NCBI GenBank assembly: GCA_902534325.1
Contig: CACAPQ010000013.1
Location: forward strand, 1 to 57,384
DNA: 57,384 bases
Source: Paracoccaceae bacterium
Lineage (GTDB): Bacteria; Pseudomonadota; Alphaproteobacteria; Rhodobacterales; Rhodobacteraceae
Reading direction: 5' to 3'
Shown here: piece by piece, positions 34,434 through 57,050 of the stretch
How positions within the stretch are numbered: position 1 is the stretch's first letter
How the letters are laid out: each line of letters begins with the position of its first letter
Notes under the pieces: model-generated
The model's database searches: none
What the model was told of the DNA's origin: nothing
What the model saw: the letters and a program-made list of their open reading frames with translations, nothing else
Position numbers and translations under genes: made by a program

Positions 34434-34739
34434 ATGAAGCCAGGTGAAATAATAACTTTAGAGGGCTTTATAACTTTGAATGAGGGCCGTGAGAGCATAT
34501 CCATAATGGTTTCTAATTCTGGTGATCGCCCCATTCAGGTAGGTAGCCATTACCATTTCTTTGAAACGAACGAAGCTCTAAATTTCGATAGAGAAATTAC
34601 ACGAGGAATGAGGCTAGACATAGCCTCTGGCACAGCAGTCCGTTTTGAGCCTGGCCAATCTAGAGAAGTAAATCTCATTCCCTTGTCTGGAGTAAAAAGA
34701 GTCTATGGATTCAACGGAAAAATAATGGGTGATCTTTAA
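34434..34739 (+). CDS. ureB: Urease beta subunit
   Basis: Structural subunit of 101 residues, starting [20 protein letters not shown] and carrying [19 protein letters not shown] and [16 protein letters not shown] 60-bp gap separates it from ureA; nothing convincing is seen in it. Its stop overlaps the ureC start (TAATG). Confidence 0.97.
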
Positions 34740-36448
34740 TGGCAGTAAAAATTACAAGATTTGATTACGCAGGAATGTACGGACCCACAAAAGGGGATAA
34801 GATTAGGTTGGCTGACACGGACCTTTTTATTGAGGTTGAAAAAGATTTAACAACCTATGGTGAAGAGGTTAAATTTGGTGGTGGGAAAGTTATTCGTGAT
34901 GGAATGGGCCAGTCTCAGGCAACAAGAGCTGAGGGAACACCTGATACAGTAATCACAAATGCTCTTATTTTAGATTACACTGGAATTTATAAAGCAGATG
35001 TTGCCCTCAGAGATGGGAGAGTCGAGTGTATAGGAAAAGCGGGAAATCCAGATACCCAACCAAATGTTGATATAATAATTGGTCCAGGTACAGAAATTAT
35101 TGCAGGAGAAGGCAAAATACTTACGGCAGGCGGATTTGATAGTCATATTCATTTTATTTGTCCGCAACAAATAGATGATGCTCTGCATTCCGGTGTGACT
35201 ACAATGCTAGGTGGAGGAACTGGACCAGCTCACGGTACTTTGGCCACAACTTGTACGCCAGGTAGTTGGCATATTGGAAGAATGTTACAAGCAGCAGATG
35301 GATTGCCAATGAATTTAGCGTTTGCAGGTAAAGGAAATGCTTCTCTGCCTGATGCTCTGATAGAACAAGTTGTAGGTGGTGCTTGTGCTTTGAAACTTCA
35401 TGAAGATTGGGGAACTACACCACAAGCAATTGACTGCTGCTTGGGAGTTGCTGATGATCTTGATGTGCAGGTGATGATTCATACTGATACTTTAAACGAA
35501 AGTGGATTTGTTGAGAGAACCGTAGATGCTATGAAAGGCAGAACAATACATGCTTTTCATACTGAAGGAGCTGGCGGAGGCCATGCGCCTGATATTATAA
35601 AAATTTGTGGCGAAGAATTCGTCTTACCTTCCTCAACAAATCCGACAAGGCCATTTACCAAAAATACAGTGGAAGAACATCTTGATATGTTAATGGTTTG
35701 CCATCACCTCGATAAGTCTATTCCTGAAGACATAGCATTTGCTGAAAGCCGAATAAGGCGGGAAACAATTGCAGCCGAAGATATATTGCACGACATGGGG
35801 GCCTTTTCTATCATTGCTTCCGACAGCCAAGCTATGGGGCGAGTTGGGGAAGTTATAATAAGAACCTGGCAAACTGCCGACAAAATGAAAAAGCAAAGAG
35901 GAAAACTCAAAGAAGAGGTGGGTGATAATGACAATTTAAGAGCTCGTCGTTATATCGCAAAATATACAATAAACCCAGCAATAGCTCATGGAATATCTCA
36001 AGAAGTTGGCTCTGTTGAGCCTGGTAAACGAGCTGACTTAGTTCTTTGGAACCCAGCCTTTTTTGGAGTAAAGCCAGAAATGGTTTTATTGGGAGGGACA
36101 GTAGCTGTTGCTCAAATGGGTGACCCAAATGCTTCAATTCCAACCCCACAACCAGTTTATACCAGATCCATGTTTGGCGCTTATGGGCGATCGCTTACAG
36201 AATCCTCTGTGAGTTTTGTTTCAGGTGCCGCTCAAAATGACGGTATTCGAAGCAAACTGGGCTTAGCAAAGCAAACTGTACCGGTTAAAAATACAAGAAA
36301 AATTGGAAAACTAGATTTAAAGTTAAATGTGTCGCTGCCGAACATTGAAGTTGATCCAGAGACTTATGAAGTCCGAGCAGATGGTGAACTTTTAACTTGC
36401 CAGCCAGCCGATGAAGTGTCGATGGCTCAGCGTTATTTTATGTTTTAG
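34739..36448 (+). CDS. ureC: Urease alpha (catalytic) subunit
   Basis: The 569-residue nickel enzyme subunit. The metal ligands and catalytic residues are in [27 protein letters not shown] (carbamylated Lys), [24 protein letters not shown] and the flap [22 protein letters not shown]-terminal SMAQRYFMF is the usual end. The protein is complete and without substitutions at these sites. It would consume urea from Alc and AllA as well as any exogenous urea. Confidence 0.98.
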
Positions 36449-38164: not shown

Positions 38165-38197
38165 GCTGGGGAGTAAATTCCCAGCTCATAAAGTTTT
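38161..38197. terminator. Terminator between ureG and the ribose-type importer
   Basis: ATGAGCTGGG (38161-38170) and CCCAGCTCAT (38180-38189) form an exact 10-bp stem with a 9-base loop, followed by AAAGTTTT. The ureG stop codon is inside the left arm. The convergent binding-protein gene ends at 38196, so the hairpin could serve both directions. Confidence 0.75.
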
Positions 38198-39242
38198 AGC
38201 GCTTAGGCAATGGCATCCAGCTTGGGACTGATACATCAGCGTGAGCAAATTGTGGCATTTTCGATGATAAATCTTCCATATTTTTAATGTCATTGTCATT
38301 TAAGAATTTCTGAGTGATCAGAGTTGGTGGGACAACAACATTACTTCCTGGGTTTTCACCTGCAAGCATCATTGCGAGTGATCTGACAGATACTTCTCCA
38401 ACAACAGCTGGGTTAGTAGCAACAGTTGCTGCCCAAGCAGAGTTAGGTTCACGCATTGCTGATATGTCTGCTGTTGAAACATCTGCAGAATATATATCAA
38501 TTTGATCTGTAAGGCCTGCTTCATCTACTGCAATTTTTACGCCTTTAGCAAATTCATCATATGGGGCAAACATAACTGTAATATCTGAGTTTGCCTGTAA
38601 TACAGATCTTGCTTGGTTGGCGTTTGTGTTTGCAATCGGGTTATCAAGCGTTCCAAATTGAGCTACTTCTTCAATGCCTGGATTTGCGGCTTTTATGTCT
38701 TCCCATGCGGCATGCCGTCTATCTAGTGGTGCAATCCCTGGGACATAAACATACCCTGCTTTCCAGGAAGTTCCATTGTCTTTGATTGCTTGCTCCAAAG
38801 CAAGTTTACCTAGTAAATAGTCTGATTGCTCTATTTGCGGAATTGCGGAATTTTCAACGTTAACGTCAAATGCAACGACTTTTATTCCTGCATCGACTGC
38901 TCGTTGAGCGGCATCTCGCATGCTCTCGGTTAATCCATGTTGAATTACTATTCCGTCAACACCTAAAGCTATAGCTTGATCCACCATATCCGACTGTAAA
39001 GCCGCATCTTGCCGACTATCAAAAACCCTTAAATCAACACCTAGTGCAGCAGCTTGTGTCTCCACACCTGATAGATAAGCTTGGAAAAAGTCCCCTGTTG
39101 AAAGATACCTGACAAGAGCAATTTTTACATCACCAGGATTATCAAACGGAGCAGGCAAATCACCGGCAAATGCAGAGGTTGAAAGCGTCACAGGCAATGC
39201 GACCATCCCTCCAATTAATTTTAATAACGATCTTCTAAACAT
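38196..39242 (-). CDS. Ribose-type ABC transporter substrate-binding protein
   Basis: Periplasmic sugar-binding protein of 348 residues (Peripla_BP_4). A signal peptide MFRRSLLKLIGGMVALPVTL ends near AFA, residues 23-26. Motifs DGIVIQHGL, AGIKVVAFDVN and VMFAPYDEFAKGVKIAVDEAG belong to the ribose/rhamnose-type group. With its permease and ATPase it lies divergent to mtnK and mtnA, which points to a methylthioribose, 5-deoxyribose or nucleoside-derived pentose ligand. That assignment is inferred from context, not from binding residues. Confidence 0.88.
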   Translation of the reverse strand: MFRRSLLKLIGGMVALPVTLSTSAFAGDLPAPFDNPGDVKIALVRYLSTGDFFQAYLSGVETQAAALGVDLRVFDSRQDAALQSDMVDQAIALGVDGIVIQHGLTESMRDAAQRAVDAGIKVVAFDVNVENSAIPQIEQSDYLLGKLALEQAIKDNGTSWKAGYVYVPGIAPLDRRHAAWEDIKAANPGIEEVAQFGTLDNPIANTNANQARSVLQANSDITVMFAPYDEFAKGVKIAVDEAGLTDQIDIYSADVSTADISAMREPNSAWAATVATNPAVVGEVSVRSLAMMLAGENPGSNVVVPPTLITQKFLNDNDIKNMEDLSSKMPQFAHADVSVPSWMPLPKR

Positions 39243-39274
39243 AGTTTTCCTCCCTAAGTTGTTTAAGTCACGTG

Positions 39275-40297
39275 TTAGTGACCACTTTTACGCCCACTAA
39301 ATGAAAGGGCAAATGTAAAAATCAACGCAATCACGAGCACTGCGCCTTTTACAAAATCTTGAGTATAATATGGTGCATTCATCATAGTGAGACCTTGTAA
39401 GAGAATACCCACAAAAAGAGCCCCTATTGCTGTACCAAATGCATTTGGTTTAGCCGCACCAAGAACAGCAAATCCGATTAATGCCGCAGCTACCGAATCC
39501 AGTAATAAATTATTTCCTGAAGCAATATCCCCTCTGCCCAGACGTGCAGAAAGCAAAATGCCGCCGATTGAAGCCATTACGCCTGATATAACGTATGCTA
39601 AAATCTTATATTTATTTACGTTAGCTCCGGCCAAAGCTGTGGCGGTTTCATTTGAGCCAATAGCATACATTAATCTTCCATGTCGGGTTAACTCGAGAAA
39701 AATCCATATAAATACACCAACGAGAATAAAAATAATTACTGGTATTGGGATAAGCTTTTCTAAGAAAAAATCTAGCCTGTGCCTTCCAAGCCATAAAAAA
39801 GCTTGGGAGTACACTCCTTCAGTAGTAGATCCATCCGGTAATTTCATCCCAGTGGAAATGGAGCGACCTTCTGTTGGAATACGTTGAAGTCCGATTAAAA
39901 GGAACATCATCCCAAGAGTTGCTAGTAGGTCGGGAACTCTAGCTTTTACTATTAGTAAACCATTGATAAATCCAACTGCAGCGCCCATGAACAAACATGC
40001 AACAATTGCAGAGAAAGCAGACATCTCTAATACGACCATTACGTATGCAGATAGCATTAGAGCTGAAGTCGCGACGGAGCCTATAGAAAGATCAAAACCA
40101 TCTACTACCAACGTGGCTGTAACACCAAGGGCTAAAATACCTGTTATAGAAACAGATTGAAAAATAAATACAGCAGATCGAGGTCCAGCAAACCCTTCTG
40201 CTGCTATCGAAAAGAAAATTACCAATCCTACGAGTAGAATAAGAAAGCCGTATTTTATAGCAAAACGTCTTGAATTCATTTTTTGATCATTAGCCAT
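39275..40297 (-). CDS. Ribose-type ABC transporter permease (RbsC family)
   Basis: Integral membrane permease of 340 residues with about eight to ten membrane segments. The RbsC-family segments are TLVVDGFDLSIGSVAT, ARVPDLLATLGMMFLLIG and the cytoplasmic loop RLMYAIGSNETATALAGANV. One permease gene is present, so it probably works as a homodimer. The gap to the ATPase gene is 2 bp. Confidence 0.93.
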   Translation of the reverse strand: MANDQKMNSRRFAIKYGFLILLVGLVIFFSIAAEGFAGPRSAVFIFQSVSITGILALGVTATLVVDGFDLSIGSVATSALMLSAYVMVVLEMSAFSAIVACLFMGAAVGFINGLLIVKARVPDLLATLGMMFLLIGLQRIPTEGRSISTGMKLPDGSTTEGVYSQAFLWLGRHRLDFFLEKLIPIPVIIFILVGVFIWIFLELTRHGRLMYAIGSNETATALAGANVNKYKILAYVISGVMASIGGILLSARLGRGDIASGNNLLLDSVAAALIGFAVLGAAKPNAFGTAIGALFVGILLQGLTMMNAPYYTQDFVKGAVLVIALIFTFALSFSGRKSGH

Positions 40298-40299
40298 AT

Positions 40300-41823
40300 T
40301 TAAGTTCCGTAATTTGAACTATCTTGTTTATAAGCGCTTCCACTAAAACTCGATACAATTTCTGGTATATTTTCACTTTTATTTTGATATTCACCAACAA
40401 GATTTCCTTCGTGTAACACTATGACCCTATCTGCTATTTCTAGAGCTTCATCAAGTTCAGCAACAAATATGAGTGTTGCTCTTTGGCTAGAAGTTGATCG
40501 TATTTGAATACCAATATCGCGCCGAGCTTTTATATCTACTCCTTGAAAGGGTTCGTCTAAAAGGAGTACCGAAGACTCCTCAGCCAACCATCTTCCAACC
40601 ATAACTTTCTGCTGGTTGCCCCCGGATAATGTTGTAACGGAGTCTGCCTCAGATTGGCACACTATTCCAAGTTCACTAATAGAATTTCTAGCATTTTGAG
40701 AAAGTCTTTTAGTACGAAGGAAAGAAAATCTGCTGTGCTTTTTAAAAAATGGTAACGCTAAATTGTTAGATATATCAAACTCAGAGACAACAGCATTTGA
40801 TGCCCTATCTTTAGGACACATAAAAACGCCTTCTGCGATGGCTTCTTTTGGGCTTTGGGGACTGTATGGATTCCCATTTAAAGTCATTTTAACTTTTGAA
40901 TTTGGACTTAATCCAAATATTTGCGATGCCAAAGTAGTTTTTCCACTACCTATAAGGCCGGTGATTGAAACAATTTCATTTTTATAGAAAGATAAGTCAA
41001 AGGGTTCGCTGTCATTAGCTAATCTTACCCCTTTTAGATTCAATATTTCTCGTTTTCGCGCGTTTATTTTTATCTCATTTTGCGACAGCTTCTGGCCAAG
41101 CATTGCCGTCACAGCCCCCTCATAATTTAAGGGCTTTTCTTCGAATAGTCCTGATATTGTACCGTCTCTCATGGCTACGATGCGATCGGCAATACTATTT
41201 ATATCTGACATCCGATGAGAAATATATAAAATAGCAACGCCTTGGCCTTTCAGTTTTTGTAATAGTGTAAAAAGTCTTTTGGCTTCATTTTCAGAAAGAG
41301 AGGAAGTCGGTTCGTCCAAAATAAGCAGTTTGGGAGCATGGGCCATCGCGCGCGCAATGGCAATCATCTGTTTATCAGCTGGTCCCAAATCCCTAACCAA
41401 AGTTGCTGTATCCAAGTTTATATCCATGGCTGACGCAATTTTATCAGCTTCTTTTTTTAGCTTTTCTGAATTAATAAAGAACCCTGAATTTTGTTCTGCA
41501 AGTTTATCAATCATAAGGTTTGAAATCACGTCTAAATCAGGAATAACACCGTTATTTATTGACTGATGAACAGTCACTACTCCAGATTTAAACGCATCGG
41601 CTGGTGAAACTGGCTCGAACCTTTCACCCAAAAGATAAACCGATCCAGCATCTGCCTGATGCACACCACATAGTATTTTAACTAAGGTTGATTTTCCTGC
41701 ACCATTTGCGCCCATGAGTACAGTAATCATACCAGCAGGCAAATCTAAATTGATTTCCTGAAGGACTTTGTTCGGCCCAAATGACTTTACAATACCTGAA
41801 ATTTGGCAAGCAGTTTTCGACAT
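40300..41823 (-). CDS. Ribose-type ABC transporter ATPase with two nucleotide-binding domains (RbsA family)
   Basis: A 507-residue tandem ATPase. The first domain has Walker A GANGAGKST and Walker B LLILDEPTSSLSE. The second has a degenerate Walker A, GLIGSGKTT, and LSGGNQQKVMVGRWL with LLLDEPFQGVD. This two-domain layout is the norm for pentose importers. It is the first gene of the leftward importer operon and diverges from mtnK across a 128-bp region. Confidence 0.93.
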   Translation of the reverse strand: MSKTACQISGIVKSFGPNKVLQEINLDLPAGMITVLMGANGAGKSTLVKILCGVHQADAGSVYLLGERFEPVSPADAFKSGVVTVHQSINNGVIPDLDVISNLMIDKLAEQNSGFFINSEKLKKEADKIASAMDINLDTATLVRDLGPADKQMIAIARAMAHAPKLLILDEPTSSLSENEAKRLFTLLQKLKGQGVAILYISHRMSDINSIADRIVAMRDGTISGLFEEKPLNYEGAVTAMLGQKLSQNEIKINARKREILNLKGVRLANDSEPFDLSFYKNEIVSITGLIGSGKTTLASQIFGLSPNSKVKMTLNGNPYSPQSPKEAIAEGVFMCPKDRASNAVVSEFDISNNLALPFFKKHSRFSFLRTKRLSQNARNSISELGIVCQSEADSVTTLSGGNQQKVMVGRWLAEESSVLLLDEPFQGVDIKARRDIGIQIRSTSSQRATLIFVAELDEALEIADRVIVLHEGNLVGEYQNKSENIPEIVSSFSGSAYKQDSSNYGT

Positions 41824-41951
41824 TTCCCTCTCCCAAAGAAAAGCTTAACCTAAGCTATTCGACTGTCAACACTATTGACAAAAGTCAATTCATGCACTTG
41901 CTTGTTTATGTTCAATTTTAATTAAAAATTTAAATAAGGAGGAGCGATTGT
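41824..41951. promoter_or_regulatory. Divergent importer/mtnK promoter region with inverted repeats
   Basis: Two short exact inverted repeats are visible: AGCTTA-ACC-TAAGCT (41842-41856) and ATTGAC-AAAA-GTCAAT (41874-41889). A further TGTCAA half-site is at 41864-41869. A strong AAGGAGGAG ribosome site precedes the mtnK ATG. They are candidate operators for shared control of the importer and the salvage genes; the cognate regulator is not in the window. Confidence 0.5.
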
Positions 41952-43211
41952 ATGTCTTCGGAAAAGTACGAGCCGCTTACAATCGAAACGCTTGCCGATA
42001 GATTAGGGTCAGTTGATGCTATCTGTAAAATAGTAGGTGACGATACAAGCAAATGGAACATTGATGAAGTGGGTGATGGGAACTTAAATCTTGTCTATAC
42101 GGTTTCAAGTGAATCAGGAAATATAATTATAAAGCAGGCCCTTCCTTATGTGAGGTTAGTAGGAGATAGCTGGCCATTGCCCTTAAGCCGCTCGTTCTAT
42201 GAGCATGAGGTTTTAGTAAGACAAGCCAAGCGTGATCCGGGAAGCGTGCCGGCAATATACTATTTTGATAAAGAACAAGCCATCATCGCTATGGAAATGC
42301 TCTTGCCGCATATCATTTTAAGAAAAAAATTAATTGCTGGGGAATATGTAAACGGATTAGCGCAAAGGCTTGGAGAATTTTGTGCCCGTAATGCATTTAG
42401 AGGATCTGATTTATCGCTCCAAACAGCGGATAAAAAAAGTGATACAGCAATGTTTCAGGGTAACCTTGCGCTAATGGCAATCACCGAAAGCCTCGTTTTT
42501 ACGGAGCCTTATTTTGAAGCAGAAATGAACCATCATACGGAAGGGCTAGATCCGGTTGTTAAAACACTAAGATCAGATGTAAAAATGAAAAGTGAAGCTC
42601 AGAAAATGCTTATGAAGTTTACATCGAATACAGAGACCTTGTGTCATGGTGACTTACATTCTGGTTCAGTGATGTGCACAGATAATGAAACAAAAGTTAT
42701 AGATCCCGAATTTGGCTTCTACGGTCCAATGGGCTTTGATATTGGAATGCTAATTTCAAATTACTTAATGGCATATTTCAGTCAACCAGGGCATCGCGAT
42801 AGTGAAAAATTGTTAGAATATCAAAATTGGATTTTGAAAGTTATCGAAGAGACTTTTAAGACATTTCAGCAGGAGTTTAAAAAACTATGGAATTCTGAAA
42901 GAGCAGGTATTTTGTTCCCTAGATCAATGTTTGAAGATCAGGGAGATAGCTCAGACTTTGCGCTCAACAAAATGCTTGAACACATATGGCAAGATGCTGT
43001 TGCTATATGTGGTATTGAAATGCATAGGCGTGTCTTATCACTTGCGCACAATGCGGATTTTGAGGAAATTAGTGATACTAAGAAAAGGTCCCAGCTCGAA
43101 GCTAGAAATTTAATGATGGGACGAGAGTTAATCTTAAATAATAATTCGATAAAAAATGCTAGTGCGCTTACTAGCTTGGCAAAAAAGTTCAATTCGGAGA
43201 ATTACCTATGA
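41952..43211 (+). CDS. mtnK: S-methyl-5-thioribose kinase-like protein
   Basis: A 419-residue kinase of the APH/choline-kinase fold, MtnK branch. [12 protein letters not shown] and [14 protein letters not shown] form the N-lobe, [10 protein letters not shown] is the catalytic loop and [19 protein letters not shown] the metal-binding and C-lobe signature. It phosphorylates methylthioribose at O-1; 5-deoxyribose is also a possible substrate. The strong ribosome site and divergent importer suggest it traps imported sugar. ATGA overlap with mtnA. Confidence 0.88.
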
Positions 43212-44305
43212 AGGTTCAAGGAACTCACTATCGATCAATCTGGTATGATCATAAGGATTGTCAGGTAAAAATTATAGATCAAAGATGGCTACCTCATGAT
43301 TTTAGAATAGTCGCTCTGACAAATTTAGATGAATTTGCTGTAGCAATTCGTGATATGTGGGTAAGGGGCGCACCTCTCATAGGCGCTACTGCTGCCTATG
43401 GTGTAGCAATATCTTTAAGTAGTGACGCTTCAGACTCTGGTTTGAAAAACACATATGATTCTCTGATAGAGACTCGTCCAACAGCAATCAACCTAAAGTG
43501 GGCTCTGGATCGACTTCTAAGGGCACTGGGTCAAGTGTCTAAGGAAGAGCGTGCTTCAAAAGCATTGGAACTTGCCCATCTGGTGGCAGAAGAAGATGTT
43601 GGTATAAATAAAAAGATAGGTGAGCACGGATTAGATATTGTTAAAAAAATAGCATCTAATAAACCGGCAGGGGAACCCGTTAGGATGTTAACACATTGCA
43701 ATGCTGGATGGCCGGCAACAGTAGACTGGGGCACAGCTACTTCACCAATGTATCATGCACACGAGGCAGGCATTCCTATTCATGTTTGGGTTGATGAAAC
43801 AAGGCCAAGAAATCAAGGCGCAATGACCGCCTGGGAGCTTGAGAGCCATGGCATTAGTAATACTTACATCACAGATAATGCTGGTGGGCACCTTATGCAA
43901 AAGGGCCTTGTTGATATGGTTATTGTGGGTACTGATCGAACCACTGCCCAAGGTGATGTCTGTAACAAAATTGGCACGTATCTCAAGGCACTAGCAGCTC
44001 ATGATAATAATGTTCCATTTTATGTAGCTTTGCCTTCACCCACAATAGATTGGACAATAAGTGATGGCGTAGCAGATATTCCAATTGAAGAGCGAGCCGC
44101 TCGGGAGGTAACCCATATTTTTGGACACCACGAAAAAAATAGTATTGAAGAAATAAGGGTTACTTCAGAGGGTGTTTCTGGAGGAAATCCAGCTTTTGAT
44201 GTTACCCCAAACAGATTGGTTACAGGATTAATAACTGAGCGGGGTGTTTCTGATGCTTCTGAAAAAGCTTTAGCAAAAATGTTCCCAGATTTAGCAGGAT
44301 TTTGA
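43208..44305 (+). CDS. mtnA: S-methyl-5-thioribose-1-phosphate isomerase
   Basis: A 365-residue member of the eIF2B-alpha/MtnA family that converts methylthioribose 1-phosphate (or 5-deoxyribose 1-phosphate) to the ribulose 1-phosphate. The catalytic Cys164 ([14 protein letters not shown]) and Asp243 ([18 protein letters not shown]) are in place, with [13 protein letters not shown] near the N-terminus. The gene overlaps mtnK and is 4 bp before the aldolase-SDR gene. The usual next steps MtnB, MtnC, MtnD are not in the window. Confidence 0.95.
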
Positions 44306-44309
44306 AAAT

Positions 44310-46343
44310 ATGATCAAAAATAATTATAAATCTAGCGAAGCTAAATCTTATGTTGATCAAGTAGGCAAAGATGTTGCTGATCAAGAGCTCGCGCTTCGAG
44401 TTTACACATCAAGAATAATTGGACAAAATCCTGATCTTGTAATGCATGGTGGTGGTAACACCTCCGTTAAAGTTGAACGGAAAGATCTTTTTGGAAATAC
44501 TAAACAAGTAATACATGTTAAGGGATCAGGCTGGGACTTAGATACGATACAAGCACCTGGGCTACCTGGCCTTTGGTTAGACCCGTTGAGAGATTTACGA
44601 AATCTAGATAAGCTATCTGATGAAGATATGGTCAACGCTCAAAGGGCTAATTTGCTGGACAGTTCGGCACCAAATCCTTCAGTCGAAACATTATTACATG
44701 CTTTTCTTCCGCATAAATTTGTCGATCACACCCATGCTACACCGTTTTTAATCCTTGCAAACCTTCCAAACGCTGAAGAAGTTTGTAAAGAAATTTTTGG
44801 CTCAAGGCTAGGAATAGTTCCGTATATAATGCCTGGCTTCGATCTGGCAAAAAAAGCGGCTGAAGTTTATGATCAAGATCCTAGTGTTGAAGGTTTAATG
44901 CTTCTGGGTCACGGACATTTTGCTTTTGGTGAGACAGCTGAAGAAAGCTACAATCAAATAATATCACATACACAAATTGTTGCAGACTATTTTAACTTGA
45001 AAAAGCCGACTGCTCTTAATGTGAAAGCCAGCCATACATCTCATAAAGTCTTACCAGTGATAAGGGGTCTGATAGCCGAAATGATTGGGCCTAATGCTGC
45101 TATGCCAATTATCGATGTAAGAAATGGCCCAGAAGAAATGGAGTTTCTAAAGAGAGCTGATTTGGACAGTTTATCTGAGCGGGGAACTGCATCACCAGAT
45201 CATGTTATAAGGATTAAGGGTCGCCCATTAGTTTTACGAAAGTCAGTATGGGAGCAGGGAAGTTCTGCGATTAAAGAAGCGCTTAAGGACTATGAAAACG
45301 AATATAGGGCAATGTTTGAGCGCCAGGCTGCTAAAGCGGTCCAACCTAAAACTATTCTTCCACCAGATCCTAAAACAATATGGATGGAGGGTGTGGGTCT
45401 TTTAGGCCTCGGATCAAATTTTAAAGCAGCCAGTATAGCAGGTGATCTTGTTGTTCAGAATGCTCGTGTGAGGTCAGTTGGTGAGGATGCGGGTGGGTTT
45501 TATCCAATCTCCGAAAAAGATTTATTTGATTGTGAATATTGGTCATTGGAACAAGCCAAACTTGGCAAAGGAAAAGCGCCGGTGTTTCAGGGAAAAGTTG
45601 TAATGGTAACTGGAGGATCGGGGACAATTGGGTTTGAAACAGCAAAGGCATTTGCATCATCAGGCGCACAATGTTTTTTGATTGATTTAAACCAAGAAAA
45701 TTTGGACGCTGCTCTAGAAAAATTGGGCAAAGGCCATTTTGGAAAAGCGCTGGATGTAACTGATCCAAAGGCGGCAATAGAGGCAATTACATCTGTTACA
45801 GAGGCGTATGGAGGTCTTGACATACTAGTTTCTAACGCAGGGTCAGCGCAGTCGGGGTCAATGCTAGATATGACTAGCTCTTCCGTTAGGAAGGCTTTTG
45901 AGCTGAACTTCTTTTCTCATTACGAGTTTGCAAAAGAAGCAGCAAACTTGATGAAATTGCAATCTAGAGCAGGTCAGATCTTGTTTAATATATCGAAACA
46001 AGCTGTAAACCCTGGTAAAAATTTTGGTGCATACGGGATGCCAAAGGCAACAACTTTTTTTATGATGCGACAGCTTGCACTGGAGTTAGGGAGCGACGGA
46101 GTTCGCGTCAATGGAGTAAATGCTGACAGGATAAGGTCAGGCTTGCTTACAGATAATTTTATAGCTGAACGTGCAAATGCCCGAGGTGTTTCTGAAGATA
46201 GCTATATGGCTGGTAATTTACTCAATGCAGAAGTCAAAGCAAGTCATGTAGCAAAAGCTTTTGTTTCACTCGCCCAAGCCGAGCGAACGACTGGACATGT
46301 AATGACGGTAGATGGTGGTAATATTGAAGCTTCCTTGCGTTAA
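44310..46343 (+). CDS. Bifunctional class II aldolase-short-chain dehydrogenase
   Basis: A 677-residue fusion. Residues about 20-400 are a class II (adducin/RhaD-type) aldolase: HGGGNTSVK near residue 46, metal-binding His140 and His142 (DHTHATPF), and His201 and His203 (HGHFAFGE). Residues about 425-677 are an SDR: cofactor motif TGGSGTIG from residue 434, Tyr575 and Lys579 (YGMPKA) and VDGGN at the end. The family is usually annotated as rhamnulose-1-phosphate aldolase/dehydrogenase, but no rhamnose isomerase or rhamnulokinase is here. Position after mtnK-mtnA suggests cleavage of 5-methylthio- or 5-deoxyribulose 1-phosphate to DHAP and an aldehyde, which the SDR domain would then handle. 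Confidence 0.88.
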   Translation: MIKNNYKSSEAKSYVDQVGKDVADQELALRVYTSRIIGQNPDLVMHGGGNTSVKVERKDLFGNTKQVIHVKGSGWDLDTIQAPGLPGLWLDPLRDLRNLDKLSDEDMVNAQRANLLDSSAPNPSVETLLHAFLPHKFVDHTHATPFLILANLPNAEEVCKEIFGSRLGIVPYIMPGFDLAKKAAEVYDQDPSVEGLMLLGHGHFAFGETAEESYNQIISHTQIVADYFNLKKPTALNVKASHTSHKVLPVIRGLIAEMIGPNAAMPIIDVRNGPEEMEFLKRADLDSLSERGTASPDHVIRIKGRPLVLRKSVWEQGSSAIKEALKDYENEYRAMFERQAAKAVQPKTILPPDPKTIWMEGVGLLGLGSNFKAASIAGDLVVQNARVRSVGEDAGGFYPISEKDLFDCEYWSLEQAKLGKGKAPVFQGKVVMVTGGSGTIGFETAKAFASSGAQCFLIDLNQENLDAALEKLGKGHFGKALDVTDPKAAIEAITSVTEAYGGLDILVSNAGSAQSGSMLDMTSSSVRKAFELNFFSHYEFAKEAANLMKLQSRAGQILFNISKQAVNPGKNFGAYGMPKATTFFMMRQLALELGSDGVRVNGVNADRIRSGLLTDNFIAERANARGVSEDSYMAGNLLNAEVKASHVAKAFVSLAQAERTTGHVMTVDGGNIEASLR

Positions 46344-46497
46344 TCAGAGATAATAAAACTCTGTGCTGCGAAAGAGCCATAGCGAAACTGAAGTTAGAGT
46401 AGCATGTTCTATAAAAGATGAGAATTTTTCACACCAAATAGCTCTTTTTTATTAATTAGGCGGATTAAAGATCTACTAGGTATGAGAGGATATGATA
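46344..46497 (+). promoter_or_regulatory. Intergenic region before the nucleoside deaminase
   Basis: A 154-bp gap in an otherwise tight plus-strand cluster. AAAGAGC near 46370 and GCTCTTTTTT from 46441 are complementary across a spacing of about 65 bases, and the T-run suggests either a long-range terminator stem or a leader. AGAGGA at 46485-46490 is the ribosome site for the next gene. Confidence 0.3.
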
Positions 46498-47814
46498 ATG
46501 GATGATATTTTAATTACAGATGCCTTAATTGTCACATGTGACGGCAAACATTCTATTTTCGAAAATGGTGTAATGGCTGTTAATAACGGCAAGATAACAG
46601 CTTTAGAACGCTCTAACACATCAGCTGCAAAAAAACTTACTGCAAAAAAAATAATTGGAGCAAATGGCAATATAGTGATGCCGGGTTTAATAAACATGCA
46701 CTGTCATGCTGCAGATAGTTTGTTCAGAGGGCTGGTTGAGAACCTTCCTCTTGAAGAATGGTTGGGAAGGGTTTGGATAGCTGAAAAAGCCATACTTACT
46801 CCTGAAACTACTTACCTTGGCTCAGTCTTAGGTTTGGCGGAAAATCTGTTGAGCGGATCGACAACTGTCATGGATATGTTTTGGTATCCAGACGAAACTG
46901 TTAAAGCTGCAAAAGATTTAGGCATGCGAATATCCACTGGTGGTATCTTTTTTGATTTGCCAGGAATAGGCGGGCGCTCTCATGAAAATTATGTCTTGGA
47001 GGCCCAAAACTTTTATAAAAGCCACTCATCCGATGACAGTGTAATTCCTGCTATCTTGCCACATGGTAGTTACACTGTTTCCCCACAAAATTTGAGTGAG
47101 GCCAAAAGCATTGCAGATCAATATGGGATATTATTTTGTACTCATGCTGCAGAAACCCAAGCCGAGCAAAATGATATAAAGACACGTTATGATAACTCGG
47201 TCATACGGCATTTAGATAAGTACAAATTGTTGGGTGAAACTTCAGTACTTGCTCATTGTGTACATCTAGACGAAACAGAAATTTCACTCTTAGCCCAAAG
47301 TAAGACAAATGTAGTCCTTAACCCAATGTCAAACCTTAAGTTAGGGTCAGGTATTGCTCCAGTTAAAGAAATGTATAGAGCAGGAATAAATCTTACACTT
47401 GGTACAGATGGGGCAATCAGTGGAAACGACTTAGATATGTGGTTGGCAATGCGATTAACCTGCGGTTTAGCAAAAGGCTTAAATATGGAAGCTGATGCCT
47501 TAACTGCTGAGCAGGTACTTCACATGGCAACCATTAGCGGAGCGAAGGCTCTAGGGCGATCCGATTCACTTGGTAGTCTAGAAGTAGGTAAAAATGCAGA
47601 TTTTATTTTGGTAGATATAAACAATTCTCATTCTATTCCTCTTTTCGACCCAATTACTCATCTTGTTTTTGGTGCAGGACGTTCGGACGTTACAGATGTA
47701 TTTGTTTCTGGAAAACATGTTGTAGAAAATAAAAAAATCAGTGGTCTTGATATCGAAAAAATTCACACAAAGGTTCGTCAATTAGCTCCATCTATCAAAG
47801 CTAGCCTCGAGTAG
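46498..47814 (+). CDS. Nucleoside deaminase, MTA/SAH deaminase family
   Basis: A 438-residue amidohydrolase related to 5-methylthioadenosine/S-adenosylhomocysteine deaminase. The ATG at 46498 is preferred over 46492 because AGAGGA lies 7 bases upstream. The metal ligands are in MPGLINMHCHAADSLFRG (HxH), FCTHAAETQAEQ and LAHCVHLD, and GTDGAISGNDLDMW is diagnostic of this family. It would turn MTA or 5'-deoxyadenosine into the inosine analogue, which is the substrate of the phosphorylase 13 bp downstream. Broader specificity for other 6-aminopurine nucleosides cannot be excluded. Confidence 0.82.
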   Translation: MDDILITDALIVTCDGKHSIFENGVMAVNNGKITALERSNTSAAKKLTAKKIIGANGNIVMPGLINMHCHAADSLFRGLVENLPLEEWLGRVWIAEKAILTPETTYLGSVLGLAENLLSGSTTVMDMFWYPDETVKAAKDLGMRISTGGIFFDLPGIGGRSHENYVLEAQNFYKSHSSDDSVIPAILPHGSYTVSPQNLSEAKSIADQYGILFCTHAAETQAEQNDIKTRYDNSVIRHLDKYKLLGETSVLAHCVHLDETEISLLAQSKTNVVLNPMSNLKLGSGIAPVKEMYRAGINLTLGTDGAISGNDLDMWLAMRLTCGLAKGLNMEADALTAEQVLHMATISGAKALGRSDSLGSLEVGKNADFILVDINNSHSIPLFDPITHLVFGAGRSDVTDVFVSGKHVVENKKISGLDIEKIHTKVRQLAPSIKASLE

Positions 47815-47827
47815 GAAAGAGCCTCCA

Positions 47828-48658
47828 ATGGAAAACAATTTTGTAAAAAAAATAGAACTTGCAGCGGAATATATTGGTCAGCGAATAAGTCAGAGCCCAG
47901 AACTTCTATTAATTTTGGGATCTGGTTTGGGTGATGTAACGAATGAAATTTCAAAGGAAGCAGAAATCTCCTATAAAGAAATTCCAGAATTTCCTTTTTC
48001 CACTGCGCCGTCTCATGCAGGAAATTTAGTTTCGGGAAATTTCAATGGAAGGCCCGTACTGGTTATGCAGGGTAGGTTGCATTTATATGAGGGTTGGAAA
48101 GCTAACGAGATAGCATTCCCAATCAGGGTTGCCAAAAACTTAGGTGTAAGAAAGATGATTGTAACTAACGCTGCTGGTGCTTTGAGTACAAGTTTGGAAC
48201 CTGGAAGTGTTATGATGCTTACTGACCATATAAATTTTACTGGCCACAATCCACTTATTGGCCCACATGACGATGAATTAGGATTACGCTTTCCTGACAT
48301 GTCCGACGTTTATGATAAAAAGATACAGGGGATAGTGTCTCACTGCTTTAAAAATGCTGGTATCAAATTGAGCAAAGGAATTTACGCTGGTATAACCGGC
48401 CCTTCTTTGGAGACTTCGGCGGAGCGACGTTTTCTAAGGGAGAGTGGAGCCGATGCTGTTGGGATGTCTACAATAATGGAAGTGATTGCAGCAAAACAGG
48501 CTGGTTTTGAGATTGCTGGTCTATCAGCAATTACCAACAAGGCTGATGGTGGACCAGAACAGCAGACCGATACAATTGAAGAAGTGTTAGAGTATGCCAG
48601 TGTAGCGGGAAAAAAGATTAAATCTATTTTACCAGGACTTTTACAGGCATGGACTTAA
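47828..48658 (+). CDS. Purine nucleoside phosphorylase, 6-oxopurine type
   Basis: A 276-residue trimeric-type PNP (class I). GSGLGDV, HAGNLVSG, QGRLHLYEGW, TNAAGALSTSLEPG and GPSLETSAERRFL match the family. The base-contacting residue in AITNKADGG is Asn237, the residue typical of inosine/guanosine phosphorylases. MTA phosphorylase normally has Asp here. This fits a deaminated nucleoside made by the upstream enzyme. Products would be a pentose 1-phosphate for MtnA and hypoxanthine for XdhAB. Confidence 0.92.
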   Translation: MENNFVKKIELAAEYIGQRISQSPELLLILGSGLGDVTNEISKEAEISYKEIPEFPFSTAPSHAGNLVSGNFNGRPVLVMQGRLHLYEGWKANEIAFPIRVAKNLGVRKMIVTNAAGALSTSLEPGSVMMLTDHINFTGHNPLIGPHDDELGLRFPDMSDVYDKKIQGIVSHCFKNAGIKLSKGIYAGITGPSLETSAERRFLRESGADAVGMSTIMEVIAAKQAGFEIAGLSAITNKADGGPEQQTDTIEEVLEYASVAGKKIKSILPGLLQAWT

Positions 48659-48702: not shown

Positions 48703-49458
48703 TTGACTGAGCTGACAGGAAAGCGGGCTTTGGTTACGGGCTCCAAAAGTGGTATTGGATTTGCCATCGCAAAAAGACTGGTGCAAGCTGGGGCAGAAAT
48801 TATTCTGCACGCTAGGAACGATAGTTCTGAAGTAGAAGCAGCTAAAATAAAATTAGCAAAACTCGCAAACGAAGATATATCGACGGTGTTTGGGGATTTC
48901 TCAGATCCAAATTCCTGCTGTTCACTGTTTGAAGCCATAAAAAAAGATTCTAAACCAATCGATATTCTGGTAAACAATGCAGCCATTCAACCTGTGTGTG
49001 CATTAGCCGATTTGGGGCCTTCCGAGATTAGTCAAATGTTAGAAACTAATTTACAGGTGCCGATTATGATGACACGATATTTTGCTGAATATTCTGAAAA
49101 TGGTGGATCGATTGTAAATATCTGTTCGATAGAGGGGCTCACGCCTGCCATAAACCATAGTCACTACGCAGCTTCAAAAGCAGGTCTTATTAATTTTACT
49201 AAAGCATCGGCTCTTGAGCTTGGATCTAAAAATATCCGTGTAAATTCTATTTGTCCGGGATTGACTGATAGACAAAATTTAGACAAACACTGGCCCCAAG
49301 GTGTTCAAAACTGGTTAGAAAATGTCCCTCTTAAACGATTAGGAACTGGTGAAGATATTGCAAATGCTACCTTATTTTTGGTTAGTGACGCTGCTAGTTT
49401 TATTACGGGGGCAAATTTGATTGTTGATGGCGGTATGGAATGTGTGCCTAGCTGGTAG
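48703..49458 (+). CDS. Short-chain dehydrogenase/reductase (sugar or acyl type)
   Basis: An SDR of 251 residues with a TTG start at 48703 supported by GAGGAG at 48688-48693. Cofactor motif TGSKSGIG, structural NNAAIQP, catalytic YAASKAG and C-terminal GANLIVDGG are intact. It precedes a cupin and a convergent aldonate-type dehydratase, so a sugar or polyol substrate is plausible. No residue fixes the substrate. Confidence 0.88.
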   Translation: MTELTGKRALVTGSKSGIGFAIAKRLVQAGAEIILHARNDSSEVEAAKIKLAKLANEDISTVFGDFSDPNSCCSLFEAIKKDSKPIDILVNNAAIQPVCALADLGPSEISQMLETNLQVPIMMTRYFAEYSENGGSIVNICSIEGLTPAINHSHYAASKAGLINFTKASALELGSKNIRVNSICPGLTDRQNLDKHWPQGVQNWLENVPLKRLGTGEDIANATLFLVSDAASFITGANLIVDGGMECVPSW

Positions 49459-49482
49459 GGCAAATGAATAAGGAATAGTCAA

Positions 49483-49857
49483 TTGAAGTTGCCTAGAGAT
49501 GATATCAGCTCCCCAGAATTTTGGACTGACGAGAGATGTTTTATAACTGAGTGCCTAAATAGCGAAAAGGTCGAAGAGTTTTCGTTGGCTGTCGCGCGAG
49601 TTAAACCTTCTGTAACAACACAATTGCATTGCCTTAGAAATACGAAAGAAATTTATATTATCCGAAAGGGTACCGGTTTGGTTCTTGTGGGGGAAAAAGA
49701 AATTGAGGTCTCCGTTGGCGACAGTGTTATTATCCCAGCTAACACCCCTCAAAGGATTACCAATTTGAGCAATTCTGAAGACCTAGAGTTTTATTGCCAC
49801 TGTTCTCCCAGATTTAAACCAGAAGTTTATGAAAATTTAGAAACAAACGGTAGCTAG
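49483..49857 (+). CDS. Small cupin-domain protein
   Basis: A 124-residue single-cupin protein with a TTG start and AAGGA eight bases upstream. TQLHCLRNTKEIYIIRKGTG is cupin motif 1 and VGDSVIIPANTPQRITN is motif 2; metal-binding His and Glu are partly recognisable. It ends in a 4-base convergent overlap with the dehydratase gene. It could be a sugar isomerase/epimerase or a ligand-binding protein. Function not known. Confidence 0.75.
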   Translation: MKLPRDDISSPEFWTDERCFITECLNSEKVEEFSLAVARVKPSVTTQLHCLRNTKEIYIIRKGTGLVLVGEKEIEVSVGDSVIIPANTPQRITNLSNSEDLEFYCHCSPRFKPEVYENLETNGS

Positions 49858-51584
49858 TTTATTTCTGGTTCTTCAACTGCAGCTCCAAAGTCAGTGCTTA
49901 GAAAGTCGAAATCGCAACCCTTGTCAGCTTGTTCAATATGTTTTGAATATATATACCCGTATCCACGTTCGTATCGAGGTTTAGGTGCAACCCAATCCTC
50001 CTGGCGCTTTTTCATTTCACTTTTGGAAATATCAACGTCAAGTTTACGGTTGGGAATATCTACCTGAATAATATCTCCGGTTCTAATTAATGCTAGCGGT
50101 CCACCAATAAAGGCTTCAGGTGCTACATGTAGAATGCATGCACCATAGGAAGTTCCTGACATGCGCGCATCCGACAGCCTTATCATATCTCTATGTCCCT
50201 GTTTGAGTAATGCTTTGGGCATAGGGATCATGCCCCACTCTGGCATACCTGGCCCGCCTTTTGGGCCGGCATTTCTTAAAACTAAAATATGGTCCGCTGT
50301 TATGGGATAATCTTCGTCATTTATAATTTCTTTTAATTCAGCATAGCTATCAGCAACTATTGCTGGTCCCCTATGTTTTTGAAATTTGGGGTCCATAGCC
50401 GCTGGTTTTATGACGGCGCCATCAGGTGCGAGATTACCTTTCAAAACAGCTAATGATCCTTCATGATAAACCGGATTTTTAAGAGTTCGGATCACATCAC
50501 TATTATAATTCTTGGACCCTTTGATACATTCCTTGAGGGTTTGCCCTGTAACTGTTTTTACATTCAGGTCCAGCTTATCGCCCAGTTCAACCATAAGAGC
50601 ACGCAAACCTCCTGCGTAGAAAAAGTCTTCCATCAAATAGTTTTTTCCTGATGGTCTGATATTAGCAATGACGGGTGTCGTTCTGCCGATTTCGTCGAGT
50701 TGATCTAACGTCAGATTTACGCCAGCACGGCGGGCCATTGCGATTAAGTGAATTATCGCATTAGTTGAGCAACCTGTTGCCATTGCTACGGTGACTGCGT
50801 TTCTTGTACTTGCTTCGTTTATTATTTGATCAGGAGTTAAGTCTTCCCAGACCATATCAACAATTCGACGACCGCTCTCCGCGGCCATGCGTTTATGGCT
50901 TGCGTCAGGCGCTGGTATTGAAGAAGCCCCGGGTAATGTTAAGCCCCAGCCGTCGGCAATGCTCATCATGGTAGAAGCGGTTCCCATTGTCATACATGTG
51001 CCGTAGCTTCGAGCAATTCCACCCTGTACCCCTTCCCATTGCTCTTTTGAAATATTGCCAGCTCTTCGTTCATCCCAGTATTTCCATACATCAGTACCAG
51101 ACCCTAGCTTTTCACCTGCATAGTTGCCTCGCAACATTGCTCCTGCAGGCATGTAGATAAAAGGTAAGCCCATGCTGGTTGCGCCCATGATTAAAGCAGG
51201 TGTTGATTTATCACAGCCTCCCATGAGGACTGCTCCATCAATGGGGTGAGCGCGCAAGGTTTCTTCAACTTCTAAAGCGCCCATGTTTCGATATAGCATT
51301 GATGTAGGTTTAAGAAATTGCTCAGAGAAGGAATGAACTGGCATTTCCACAGGCATTCCACCAGCCTGATAAACGCCTTTTTTAACAAACTCGGCCCGGT
51401 CTCTCAAATGATGATGGCATGGAGATAAATCTGACCAGGTATTAATAATGGCAATTATAGGTTTTCCTTCCCAATCCTCTCGTTCTAGCCCCATCTGCAT
51501 GGCACGTGATCTATGCCCCATGGATCTTAAGTCATCTGGGGCAAACCAACGTGCGGATCTTAACTCATCTTTTTTCTTAGCCAT
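49854..51584 (-). CDS. IlvD/Edd-family dehydratase, probable aldonate (arabonate/xylonate-type) dehydratase
   Basis: A 576-residue Fe-S dehydratase. The cluster cysteines lie in LSPCHHHLRD, LMGGCDKSTPA and SYGTCMTMGTASTM. SARWFAPDDLRSMGHRSRA and FLSEQF-like segments place it nearer L-arabonate and D-xylonate dehydratases than IlvD. The ATG at 51584 (MAKKKDELRS) is preferred; an extension to 51650 has no homology. It removes water from an aldonate to give a 2-keto-3-deoxy acid, a catabolic step. No matching aldolase is next to it. Confidence 0.85.
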   Translation of the reverse strand: MAKKKDELRSARWFAPDDLRSMGHRSRAMQMGLEREDWEGKPIIAIINTWSDLSPCHHHLRDRAEFVKKGVYQAGGMPVEMPVHSFSEQFLKPTSMLYRNMGALEVEETLRAHPIDGAVLMGGCDKSTPALIMGATSMGLPFIYMPAGAMLRGNYAGEKLGSGTDVWKYWDERRAGNISKEQWEGVQGGIARSYGTCMTMGTASTMMSIADGWGLTLPGASSIPAPDASHKRMAAESGRRIVDMVWEDLTPDQIINEASTRNAVTVAMATGCSTNAIIHLIAMARRAGVNLTLDQLDEIGRTTPVIANIRPSGKNYLMEDFFYAGGLRALMVELGDKLDLNVKTVTGQTLKECIKGSKNYNSDVIRTLKNPVYHEGSLAVLKGNLAPDGAVIKPAAMDPKFQKHRGPAIVADSYAELKEIINDEDYPITADHILVLRNAGPKGGPGMPEWGMIPMPKALLKQGHRDMIRLSDARMSGTSYGACILHVAPEAFIGGPLALIRTGDIIQVDIPNRKLDVDISKSEMKKRQEDWVAPKPRYERGYGYIYSKHIEQADKGCDFDFLSTDFGAAVEEPEIN

Positions 51585-51705
51585 GATATTTAAGTTTATA
51601 GATAGCTTTTCTGAGGGAGGATAGCTTTTAAATTTTTTGATCTGGCACAATATCTTACACTGAATCTACATTGCAAAAGTCTTAAAAGACTTCTAGATTG
51701 CGTAG

Positions 51706-55173: not shown

Positions 55174-55995
55174 TTATTGATTTTGGATTAATTCAGAAGT
55201 TAGGCTTTTTAAATAAACTATGCTTTCAGCCGTCCATTTATCTTCATTCTTTTTGGCATCCTCAAAGTTTCCCGGCCACGGCAACCAGTGTTCGTAAATG
55301 GCACTAATTTCCGTATCTATAAACTTTGATAAAAGACTTTGAATATTTGTGAGGCCATCACCCATGGGCGCGCCTTCGATGCAAAAACCTACACCATATG
55401 GATCTAACTTAAATTGATAGTCTTTAATGTGTAAGTTGATGGTATGTTCTGCCAGGCAGTCTATCGTTTCATCTGGCCATTCCCCAGCACAGATAGAGTT
55501 AGCGACATCTAAGCATGCTCCTAGATATTCATGATCAACAAGTTTAATTATGTTTGCCATTCTTGTTGAGGGGAAAGCAAAATGATTTTCTATGGCGATT
55601 TTACATTTTATTTTCTCTGCTATTGGAAGAATTTTTTTAAATTCTTTAGCGATGTCATCATCTGAAGTCTGAACGTCATTGCCGTCTAAAGCTATTCTTA
55701 ATATTCTTGCGTTTAGGCGTTCAGCAATTTGTAAATATTCCTTAGTGGTTTCTGGTGAAAAAGATTGCAAACCTATTTCGAGATTAATACCTAAGTTGTT
55801 TGCCGACTTAGAAAGGTCTTCAAGAGTTTCGCTTGCTATAGTGTGGATGGGCATATTATCTGCAATCTGCAAAACATCCAAGTCAAGTTGAGATGTTATC
55901 TCTAGCAATTCCAAGCAGCCTAAAGGTCTTTGCGGTACTCGATCTTTATGGCCAATTGACCAACGGTAAGAATATGATCCCAGCCCAAGCTTCAT
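55174..55995 (-). CDS. Sugar phosphate isomerase/epimerase-fold protein (AP endonuclease family 2 type)
   Basis: A 273-residue TIM-barrel protein. IAIENHFAFPS, LGACLDVANSIC and LHIKDYQ give the usual metal-site residues Glu, Asp and His/Lys. It overlaps the next gene by four bases (ATGA). Likely isomerises, epimerises or dehydrates a sugar or polyol. Specific substrate not recognisable. Confidence 0.83.
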   Translation of the reverse strand: MKLGLGSYSYRWSIGHKDRVPQRPLGCLELLEITSQLDLDVLQIADNMPIHTIASETLEDLSKSANNLGINLEIGLQSFSPETTKEYLQIAERLNARILRIALDGNDVQTSDDDIAKEFKKILPIAEKIKCKIAIENHFAFPSTRMANIIKLVDHEYLGACLDVANSICAGEWPDETIDCLAEHTINLHIKDYQFKLDPYGVGFCIEGAPMGDGLTNIQSLLSKFIDTEISAIYEHWLPWPGNFEDAKKNEDKWTAESIVYLKSLTSELIQNQ

Positions 55996-56951: not shown

Positions 56952-57050
56952 GACTTTTCTCCGGTTCTGTTGCGATAAATTAAACACAAATATTTGGAAG
57001 CACCAAATGAAACTTAAAGATTCATTGGGTTACTTTGTGAAAGCTAATTT

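Follow-up and report, generated by a model that had tools for sequence, protein, structure and literature searches.

Analysis of a 57,384-base contig from a Paracoccaceae bacterium (CACAPQ010000013.1 of assembly GCA_902534325.1, 2.09 Mb, genome 77.8% complete; hereafter the window, meaning the whole stretch) pointed, with good confidence, to a catabolic dihydroxyacetone phosphate (DHAP) shunt that would act on imported 5-methylthioribose (MTR), and probably on 5-deoxyribose, and end in a class II aldolase fused to a short-chain dehydrogenase/reductase (SDR). Intact open reading frames (ORFs) for an ABC importer, MtnK, MtnA, the fusion, an amidohydrolase and a purine nucleoside phosphorylase (PNP) were called on the window at exactly 38196–48658 (Table 1). 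The function is well supported by comparison: gene content, order, conservation and homology were read from the data, and substrates, every reaction and the redox direction are proposed from them. The importer would take up the 5-modified ribose, MtnK would form its 1-phosphate and MtnA would isomerise this to the ribulose 1-phosphate, which the aldolase half would cleave into DHAP and 2-(methylthio)acetaldehyde (or acetaldehyde). Still within the same polypeptide, the SDR half would then convert the aldehyde, NAD+-dependent oxidation to (methylthio)acetate (or acetate) being the most likely course. In this lineage the deaminase-type amidohydrolase and the PNP could supply the same 1-phosphate from 5'-methylthioadenosine (MTA) or 5'-deoxyadenosine.

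The locus and its encoded proteins

Genes mtnK and mtnA overlap by 4 bp and the fusion begins 4 bp past mtnA, with the importer upstream of mtnK in divergent orientation and a gap of 148 bp between the fusion and the amidohydrolase. Curated NCBIfam cut-offs were passed by MtnK, MtnA, the fusion and the PNP. A first-pass annotation, made from the letters alone, had described a tight mtnK-mtnA-fusion unit preceded by a divergent importer and followed by a deaminase-type amidohydrolase and a PNP, and ORFs and families agreed with this description; its '44.3-kb protein' is the fusion, encoded at 44.3 kb. It had also proposed a DHAP shunt for MTR or 5-deoxyribose that uses the fusion and its own importer, a proposal that gained support from the recurrence of the linkage, the closeness of the binding protein to 4ry8 and the failure of a rhamnose alternative.

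Table 1. Features of the locus in the window (strand as read; bits are profile or sequence-search scores)
Feature	Position	Strand	Evidence
Periplasmic binding protein, ABC importer	38196–39242	-	PF13407; best PDB sequence match 4ry8 (231 bits, E 1.6e-67), then 5ulb
ABC importer permease	39275–40297	-	PF02653
ABC importer ATPase, two ABC domains	40300–41823	-	PF00005, two stretches
Inverted repeat TGTCAA-N5-TTGACA, perfect	41864–41880		between importer and mtnK
mtnK (MTR/5-deoxyribose kinase gene)	41952–43211	+	TIGR01767 473 bits, cut-off 275; PDB 2pyw, 2olc
mtnA, 5-methylthioribose-1-phosphate isomerase	43208–44305	+	TIGR00512 405 bits, cut-off 279; PDB 1t9k
Class II aldolase-SDR fusion, 677 aa	44310–46343	+	NF006192 809 bits, cut-off 639
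TRZ/ATZ amidohydrolase, possible MTA/5'-deoxyadenosine deaminase (accessory)	46492–47814	+	PF01979; best PDB matches 4dzh, 4f0r
PNP (accessory)	47828–48658	+	PRK08202 330 bits, cut-off 218; TIGR01700 301 bits, cut-off 293

The fusion consists of a class II aldolase half (residues ca. 1–420) and an SDR dehydrogenase half (ca. 425–677), in which profile searches placed Aldolase_II at residues 33–219 (PF00596, 66 bits, cut-off 22) and adh_short at 429–611. It was the sole Aldolase_II protein detected in the recovered genome. A structural model built from 29 sequences reached a mean predicted local distance difference test score (pLDDT) of 87.7, and Foldseek paired the N-terminal part of the model with 3m4r, a class II aldolase domain from a Thermoplasma protein, and found SDR enzymes as matches for the C-terminal part. 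Aldolase residues E126, H130, H140, H142 and H201 and SDR residues N533, Y575, K579 and D459 were invariant in the 29-sequence alignment, and S562 was kept in 28 of the 29; we take these to be the catalytic acid, the metal ligands, the SDR residues and the NAD-preference residue of the respective families. An acidic residue at the end of the second SDR strand is linked to NAD(H), and D459 sits at that place in 29/29 sequences, a position that fits NAD(H) use by the SDR half.

The structural model of the binding protein (pLDDT 87.5) retrieved three 4ry8 chains as the top Foldseek matches (38% identity, template modelling score 0.87–0.88 by target), followed by 5ulb (30% identity) and ribose binders (ca. 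20–25%). Entry 4ry8 is titled as the crystal structure of the 5-methylthioribose transporter solute binding protein TLET_1677 (Thermotoga lettingae Tlet_1677). Alignment showed an FF pair and the motifs LDRR/LDKR, DEFAKG and YSxD to be common to both proteins, and these may line the ligand pocket. The binding protein was 72–95% identical across the 18 other loci aligned. Combined, these comparisons suggest that it probably takes MTR or a similar 5-modified ribose.

Linkage, phylogeny and alternative functions of the fusion

Matches to the fusion at E ≤ 1e-60 were found in 20 of 41 genomes (the own genome and 40 relatives) and in 81 of 385 genomes of the class, and formed two groups of ca. 42–97% and ca. 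30–36% identity. A scan of contigs located at least 589 relatives in 596 stretches, of which the best 80 loci were kept; being the best-scoring relatives, these are biased to window-like proteins. The fusion was accompanied by mtnK and mtnA in 38 of the 80 loci, 35 of which also carried the importer. The linkage of importer, mtnK, mtnA and fusion put forward in the first-pass annotation recurs in many Alphaproteobacteria. Other loci carried mtnA and mtnP (15), mtnA only (8), mtnP only (1) or a deaminase-like gene as the only tested neighbour (1). A second set of 40 stretches (38 window-type and 2 rhamnose-type), which partly shares organisms with the first, gave mtnK, mtnA and importer in 7, mtnA and mtnP in 10, mtnA in 8, mtnP in 3 and no tested neighbour in 12, the last including both rhamnose-type stretches. 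As mtnA is common in the class (182 of 385 genomes at E ≤ 1e-40), its linkage to the fusion and not its presence carries information, the linkage counts being raw, without a chance expectation. A gene for adenine phosphoribosyltransferase (a sequence cluster with one member identified) was present in 8 of the 80 loci and could serve the salvage of adenine released by MtnP. In a Nitratireductor locus (L107, 2743–5228; L numbers denote loci and G numbers genomes), the fusion stands with a SorC gene and sugar kinases of the FGGY and PfkB types; mtnK was not found in the fetched flank.

A possible alternative function was provided by RhaEW, which has the identical two-domain architecture and whose model TIGR02632 spans the fusion over nearly its full length at 423 bits; the fusion might then be a rhamnose enzyme merely adjoining mtnKA. 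Several results make this highly improbable. The TIGR02632 score is under the cut-off (567.75). A tree of 127 fusions, from 155 sequences after near-duplicate removal, was obtained by a quick search with support from the Shimodaira–Hasegawa-like approximate likelihood ratio test (SH-aLRT) only, and long branches and uneven composition were flagged in it; five rhamnose-type rows were split off by a branch of SH-aLRT 100 and length 1.04. A rhamnose isomerase lay beside the fusion in four of these five genomes, G061 and G016 (L092, L093), G021 and G039, with L093 adjoining rhaA (668 bits) and L092 a RhaI-type isomerase (711 bits); the fifth, G022, showed no TIGR02629 match, and the surroundings of its fusion were not examined. 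By contrast, TIGR02629 matched the own genome only twice, weakly and in part (49 and 30 bits; cut-off 647), other rhamnose isomerase models not being searched. In addition, 22 aldolase positions held in more than 93% of the other 122 rows were fixed differently in the five rhamnose-type rows; E126, for example, is D there, and H46 is Y. A rhamnose role was rejected on the curated score, the mtnKA and importer neighbours, the tree, and the absence of any TIGR02629 match over cut-off in the own genome.

Within the tree, mtnK-linked rows were found mainly in one clade (39 of its 49 rows), and mtnP-linked rows in the sister group of that clade (7) and in the other large lineage (22). Loci L160, L170 and L172 carry the same importer-mtnK-mtnA set as the mtnK-linked clade together with a fusion from the mtnP-linked lineage; L164, with no tested neighbour, groups with them. 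The minimum number of changes between mtnK and mtnP labels on the tree was 2. Occurrence of the same importer-mtnK-mtnA set with either fusion lineage, together with the two label changes, points to one shared reaction, and the simplest reading is that both lineages would act alike on the MtnA product.

Plasmid records contained 327 fusion matches at E ≤ 1e-60, which may mix rhamnose-type and Mtn-type proteins; among the 30 matches listed, the label was bifunctional aldolase/short-chain dehydrogenase wherever one was given. Of five plasmid regions viewed, that of Ruegeria sp. THAF33 has mtnA alone in front of the fusion, with no mtnK or importer in the viewed stretch. In the other four, from Rhizobium rosettiformans, Shinella, Mariluticola and Pararhizobium, two transketolase-like genes and a RuBisCO-like gene come after the importer, mtnK and mtnA, and a SorC gene and the fusion stand across the importer from the mtnK-mtnA side. 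The transketolase-like pair represents N- and C-terminal parts (26328–29385 of L183, Rhizobium rosettiformans plasmid p1; also L184, L185 and L186), and the RuBisCO-like protein of L183 matched PRK09549 at 202 bits, under cut-off. At least one member of this set was also matched in L103, L104, L117, L120, L122, L126–L128, L131, L132, L143, L144 and L172; the own genome yielded no RuBisCO-type protein. The pair and the RuBisCO-like protein possibly constitute a second branch from methylthioribulose 1-phosphate.

These observations bear on the nature of the substrate. It is unlikely that it is 5-deoxyribose derived from the 5'-deoxyadenosine of radical S-adenosylmethionine enzymes, and not MTR. 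DrdK, DrdI and DrdA of B. thuringiensis do handle 5-deoxyribose, and the text of PMC6079011 describes some such clusters with sugar transporters and one with a fucose mutarotase homologue; a FucU-like gene was found in 3 of the 80 fusion loci, and the names of kinase and isomerase cover both substrates, as used in PMC10986504. The closest relative of the binding protein is nevertheless a structure titled for 5-methylthioribose, and the two transketolase-like genes and the RuBisCO-like gene that come after mtnA in four of the five plasmid regions suggest a thio-substrate, because RuBisCO-like proteins belong to known MTA pathways.

The classical methionine salvage route, reported as not visible in the first-pass annotation, was searched for through mtnB (TIGR03328) and mtnD (PF03079), mtnC and mtnE not being searched. 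For these two genes the statement stood: neither was over cut-off in any of the 41 genomes, the own one being 77.8% complete, and each model was over cut-off in 2 of 14 control genomes. Matches below cut-off were seen for mtnD in 2 of the 41 genomes and, in partial form, for mtnB in 34, none of them the own genome; we read the latter as general class II aldolase similarity.

A broader picture is offered tentatively, namely an alphaproteobacterial island scavenging environmental MTR, in which the RhaEW-like fusion would cleave 5-methylthioribulose 1-phosphate and oxidise the aldehyde, filling the aldehyde step of the shunt, and in which the rhizobial and some rhodobacteral RuBisCO-like proteins and split transketolases would open a second branch from the same intermediate.

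Several observations weigh against an MTR shunt as proposed here. No tested neighbour was found in 17 of the 80 fusion loci, some of which are on short contigs. Four Nitrospina/Nitrospinota fusions (L153, L155, L159 and L161) branch deep in the tree and have no mtnK, mtnA or mtnP in the fetched flanks. The binding protein is only 38% identical to 4ry8, which does not fix its ligand. No SorC-type regulator, a frequent neighbour of the fusion, was found in the recovered own genome (G000) or in G001, G003, G004, G008 and G014 (58–78% complete). Lastly, the product described for R. palustris is 2-(methylthio)ethanol, for which PMC5893883, in its treatment of this step, postulates a putative alcohol dehydrogenase.

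This last point, with the general ability of classical SDRs to interconvert alcohols and carbonyls, would favour a reductive SDR half that yields excreted 2-(methylthio)ethanol or ethanol. We regard reduction as rather unlikely. RhaEW, the closest characterised fusion, joins a rhamnulose-1-phosphate aldolase to an NAD+-dependent lactaldehyde dehydrogenase and, in the assays described in PMC3870299, required NAD+ and was inactive with NADH; oxidation is proposed for the SDR half because RhaEW acts in this way on lactaldehyde.

Accessory genes and regulation

The amidohydrolase was under every listed NCBIfam cut-off (best PRK09045, 384 vs 540 bits), including those of the named deaminase models PRK07228 (313 vs 522) and PRK15493 (239 vs 779); 4f0r, one of its best PDB matches, is named MTA/S-adenosylhomocysteine deaminase. 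The PNP scored far under the cut-offs for MTA and 5'-methylthioinosine phosphorylases. Its PNP_UDP_1 relatives in the recovered genome were a DeoD-type PNP and an AMP nucleosidase, and neither MtnP nor MtnN was among the PNP_UDP_1 proteins of this genome (77.8% complete). The AMP nucleosidase ORF, at window positions 313–1392, lacks the first ca. 140 profile positions and, lying at the contig start, is probably cut there.

A deaminase directly 3' of the fusion was also present in G001, G003, G004 and G014, and farther downstream in G006 and G010. In G008 there was none within 1.5 kb of the fusion and a PNP lay ca. 6 kb off; in G005 the pair was absent after the fusion in the fetched stretch, with a PNP on another contig; and L076–L079 (ca. 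73%-identical members) had neither gene in the fetched downstream stretch. In G010, fusion and deaminase are separated by a SorC gene and an ABC importer of Bmp type. In L144, from another alphaproteobacterium, the fusion adjoins a block that comprises a PNP, a Bmp-type binding protein with 55% identity to its G010 counterpart, ORFs of the size of an ATPase and a permease, and a deaminase; a Bmp-type importer was also seen in L075, of the same genus as the window. This recurrence, seen in two cases, suggests a nucleoside entry. Within the fetched flanks of the 80-locus set, deaminase and PNP accompanied 4 of the 35 importer-mtnK-mtnA-fusion loci. The pair was rejected as a fixed part of the system, being found with the fusion in the closest genus members and the distant L144; the deaminase/PNP entry named in the first-pass annotation is thus plausible as an accessory, lineage-specific one. 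An amidohydrolase near the fusion of Rhizobium rosettiformans was not counted as a counterpart (cytosine deaminase, 23% identity to the window protein over 248 residues). It belongs to a stretch beside the SorC gene and fusion (L183, 9511–18004) with a cytosine deaminase unlike the window deaminase, an amidase and a BMP-type importer set.

The perfect inverted repeat between importer and mtnK was the sole match without mismatch in the window; at 2 mismatches there were 5 matches against 3.8 expected, so that only the perfect match is informative. Allowing at most 1 mismatch and a spacer of 5 or 6, the repeat occurred in 45 of 46 importer+mtnK loci and in 3 of 78 other loci (loci not dereplicated), and 45 of 51 repeat matches were located between the importer ATPase and mtnK. 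The repeat could be an operator, or paired -35 elements. Two divergent, back-to-back -35 elements with no operator are a real possibility, if short of an even chance: TTGACA matches the consensus -35 element of sigma-70, and by eye a weak -10-like hexamer fits ca. 17 bp off on either side in the window. Such an origin fits less well with the near-perfect symmetry kept in the 45 loci, and a promoter scan, which requires a better -10 match, listed no promoter at the repeat among its 11 promoter-like sites in the window (18.7 in shuffles). Ten terminator-like sites were found (5.7 in shuffles), none between genes of the unit.

A SorC-type regulator gene was present in 25 of the 80 fusion loci, mostly directly upstream of the fusion, and adjoins it in genus members G005, G006, G007, G010, G011 and G013. 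Two relatives' regulators were 31% identical to E. coli YjhU, renamed MtnR and reported as a DHAP-shunt repressor (PMC12632272, in its description of that regulator). The repeat is perfect in the window though a SorC-type regulator was found neither in the recovered genome nor in its five closest relatives. A weight-matrix search of relatives for a common operator ahead of the fusion gave weak matches between SorC gene and fusion, mostly a TGACA direct repeat, not a palindrome, and the idea was rejected; L127 held the single close repeat copy seen in that interval. A scan between fusion and deaminase in the window gave nothing above shuffles.

Elsewhere in the window, an Rfam 5_ureB_sRNA match (34895–35180, minus strand, 104.5 bits, gathering 40) lies antisense to ORF 34739–36448, by eye the urease catalytic subunit, and may merely mirror conserved coding sequence. 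Past the PNP, stretches 48703–51650 and 55992–56987 hold SDR and cupin ORFs, a dehydratase-like ORF (by eye) and an ORF with a weak, partial match to a rhamnose-isomerase profile (30 bits); these may form a sugar-acid pathway of their own. The source alphaproteobacterium is probably marine; the nearest fusions among the matches listed were from Rhodobacteraceae AG-422-J09 (97%) and AG-461-P07 and AG-359-N23 (96%), AG isolates of this type being, we assume, marine single-cell genomes.

Comparison with known systems

Entry through MTA deaminase and nucleoside phosphorylase exists in Pseudomonas. It is also described for M. jannaschii (PMC6302742, in the part concerning this entry), and the window likewise pairs a 4f0r-related amidohydrolase with an adjoining phosphorylase; the window phosphorylase differs in fitting the PNP models PRK08202 and TIGR01700.

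DHAP-shunt clusters with a kinase or phosphorylase, an isomerase and a short class II aldolase are described from six phyla, and four of those drawn in PMC6079011 include sugar transporters; a DeoR-family repressor also occurs in known clusters, according to the relevant parts of PMC6079011 and PMC12632272. The layout had been put forward as new in the first-pass annotation, a claim that goes too far: NCBIfam already names the fusion as a family (NF006192), its relative RhaEW has been characterised, and DHAP-shunt clusters with transporters have been published (PMC6079011). The open-licence literature searched yielded, in the portions accessible to the search, no report of an aldolase-SDR fusion serving the DHAP shunt, nor did searches on the transporter list one; this does not prove absence. 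Where PMC5893883 treats the handling of 2-(methylthio)acetaldehyde in R. rubrum and R. palustris, it assigns the step only to a 'putative alcohol dehydrogenase'; a conserved fusion in or near the mtnKA unit would be a specific candidate for the aldehyde step in a large bacterial group. Such a role would sharpen the generic label of the fusion in many public records, and would suggest uptake of MTR or 5-deoxyribose as food from seawater or soil, rather than detoxification alone.

With the DHAP shunt (MtnK or MtnN/MtnP, MtnA, Ald2/DrdA) the window shares a kinase, an isomerase and a class II aldolase in one unit. By contrast to the stand-alone, fuculose-1-phosphate-aldolase-like Ald2/DrdA, its aldolase is a long domain joined to an SDR in one protein, and where the E. 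coli shunt has one putative permease gene the window has an ABC importer, whose binding protein has its best sequence and fold match in Thermotoga lettingae Tlet_1677. RhaEW shares with the fusion the domain order and homology along its length (ca. 30–36% identity with the rhamnose-type fusions), and serves as a model for DHAP-forming cleavage followed by aldehyde conversion; it differs in clade, in neighbours, its orthologues being described as always inside rha loci where PMC3870299 treats them, and in fixed residues. Taken together, these comparisons suggest that the locus is a conserved DHAP-shunt variant that pairs a RhaEW-like fusion with a dedicated importer of MTR type.

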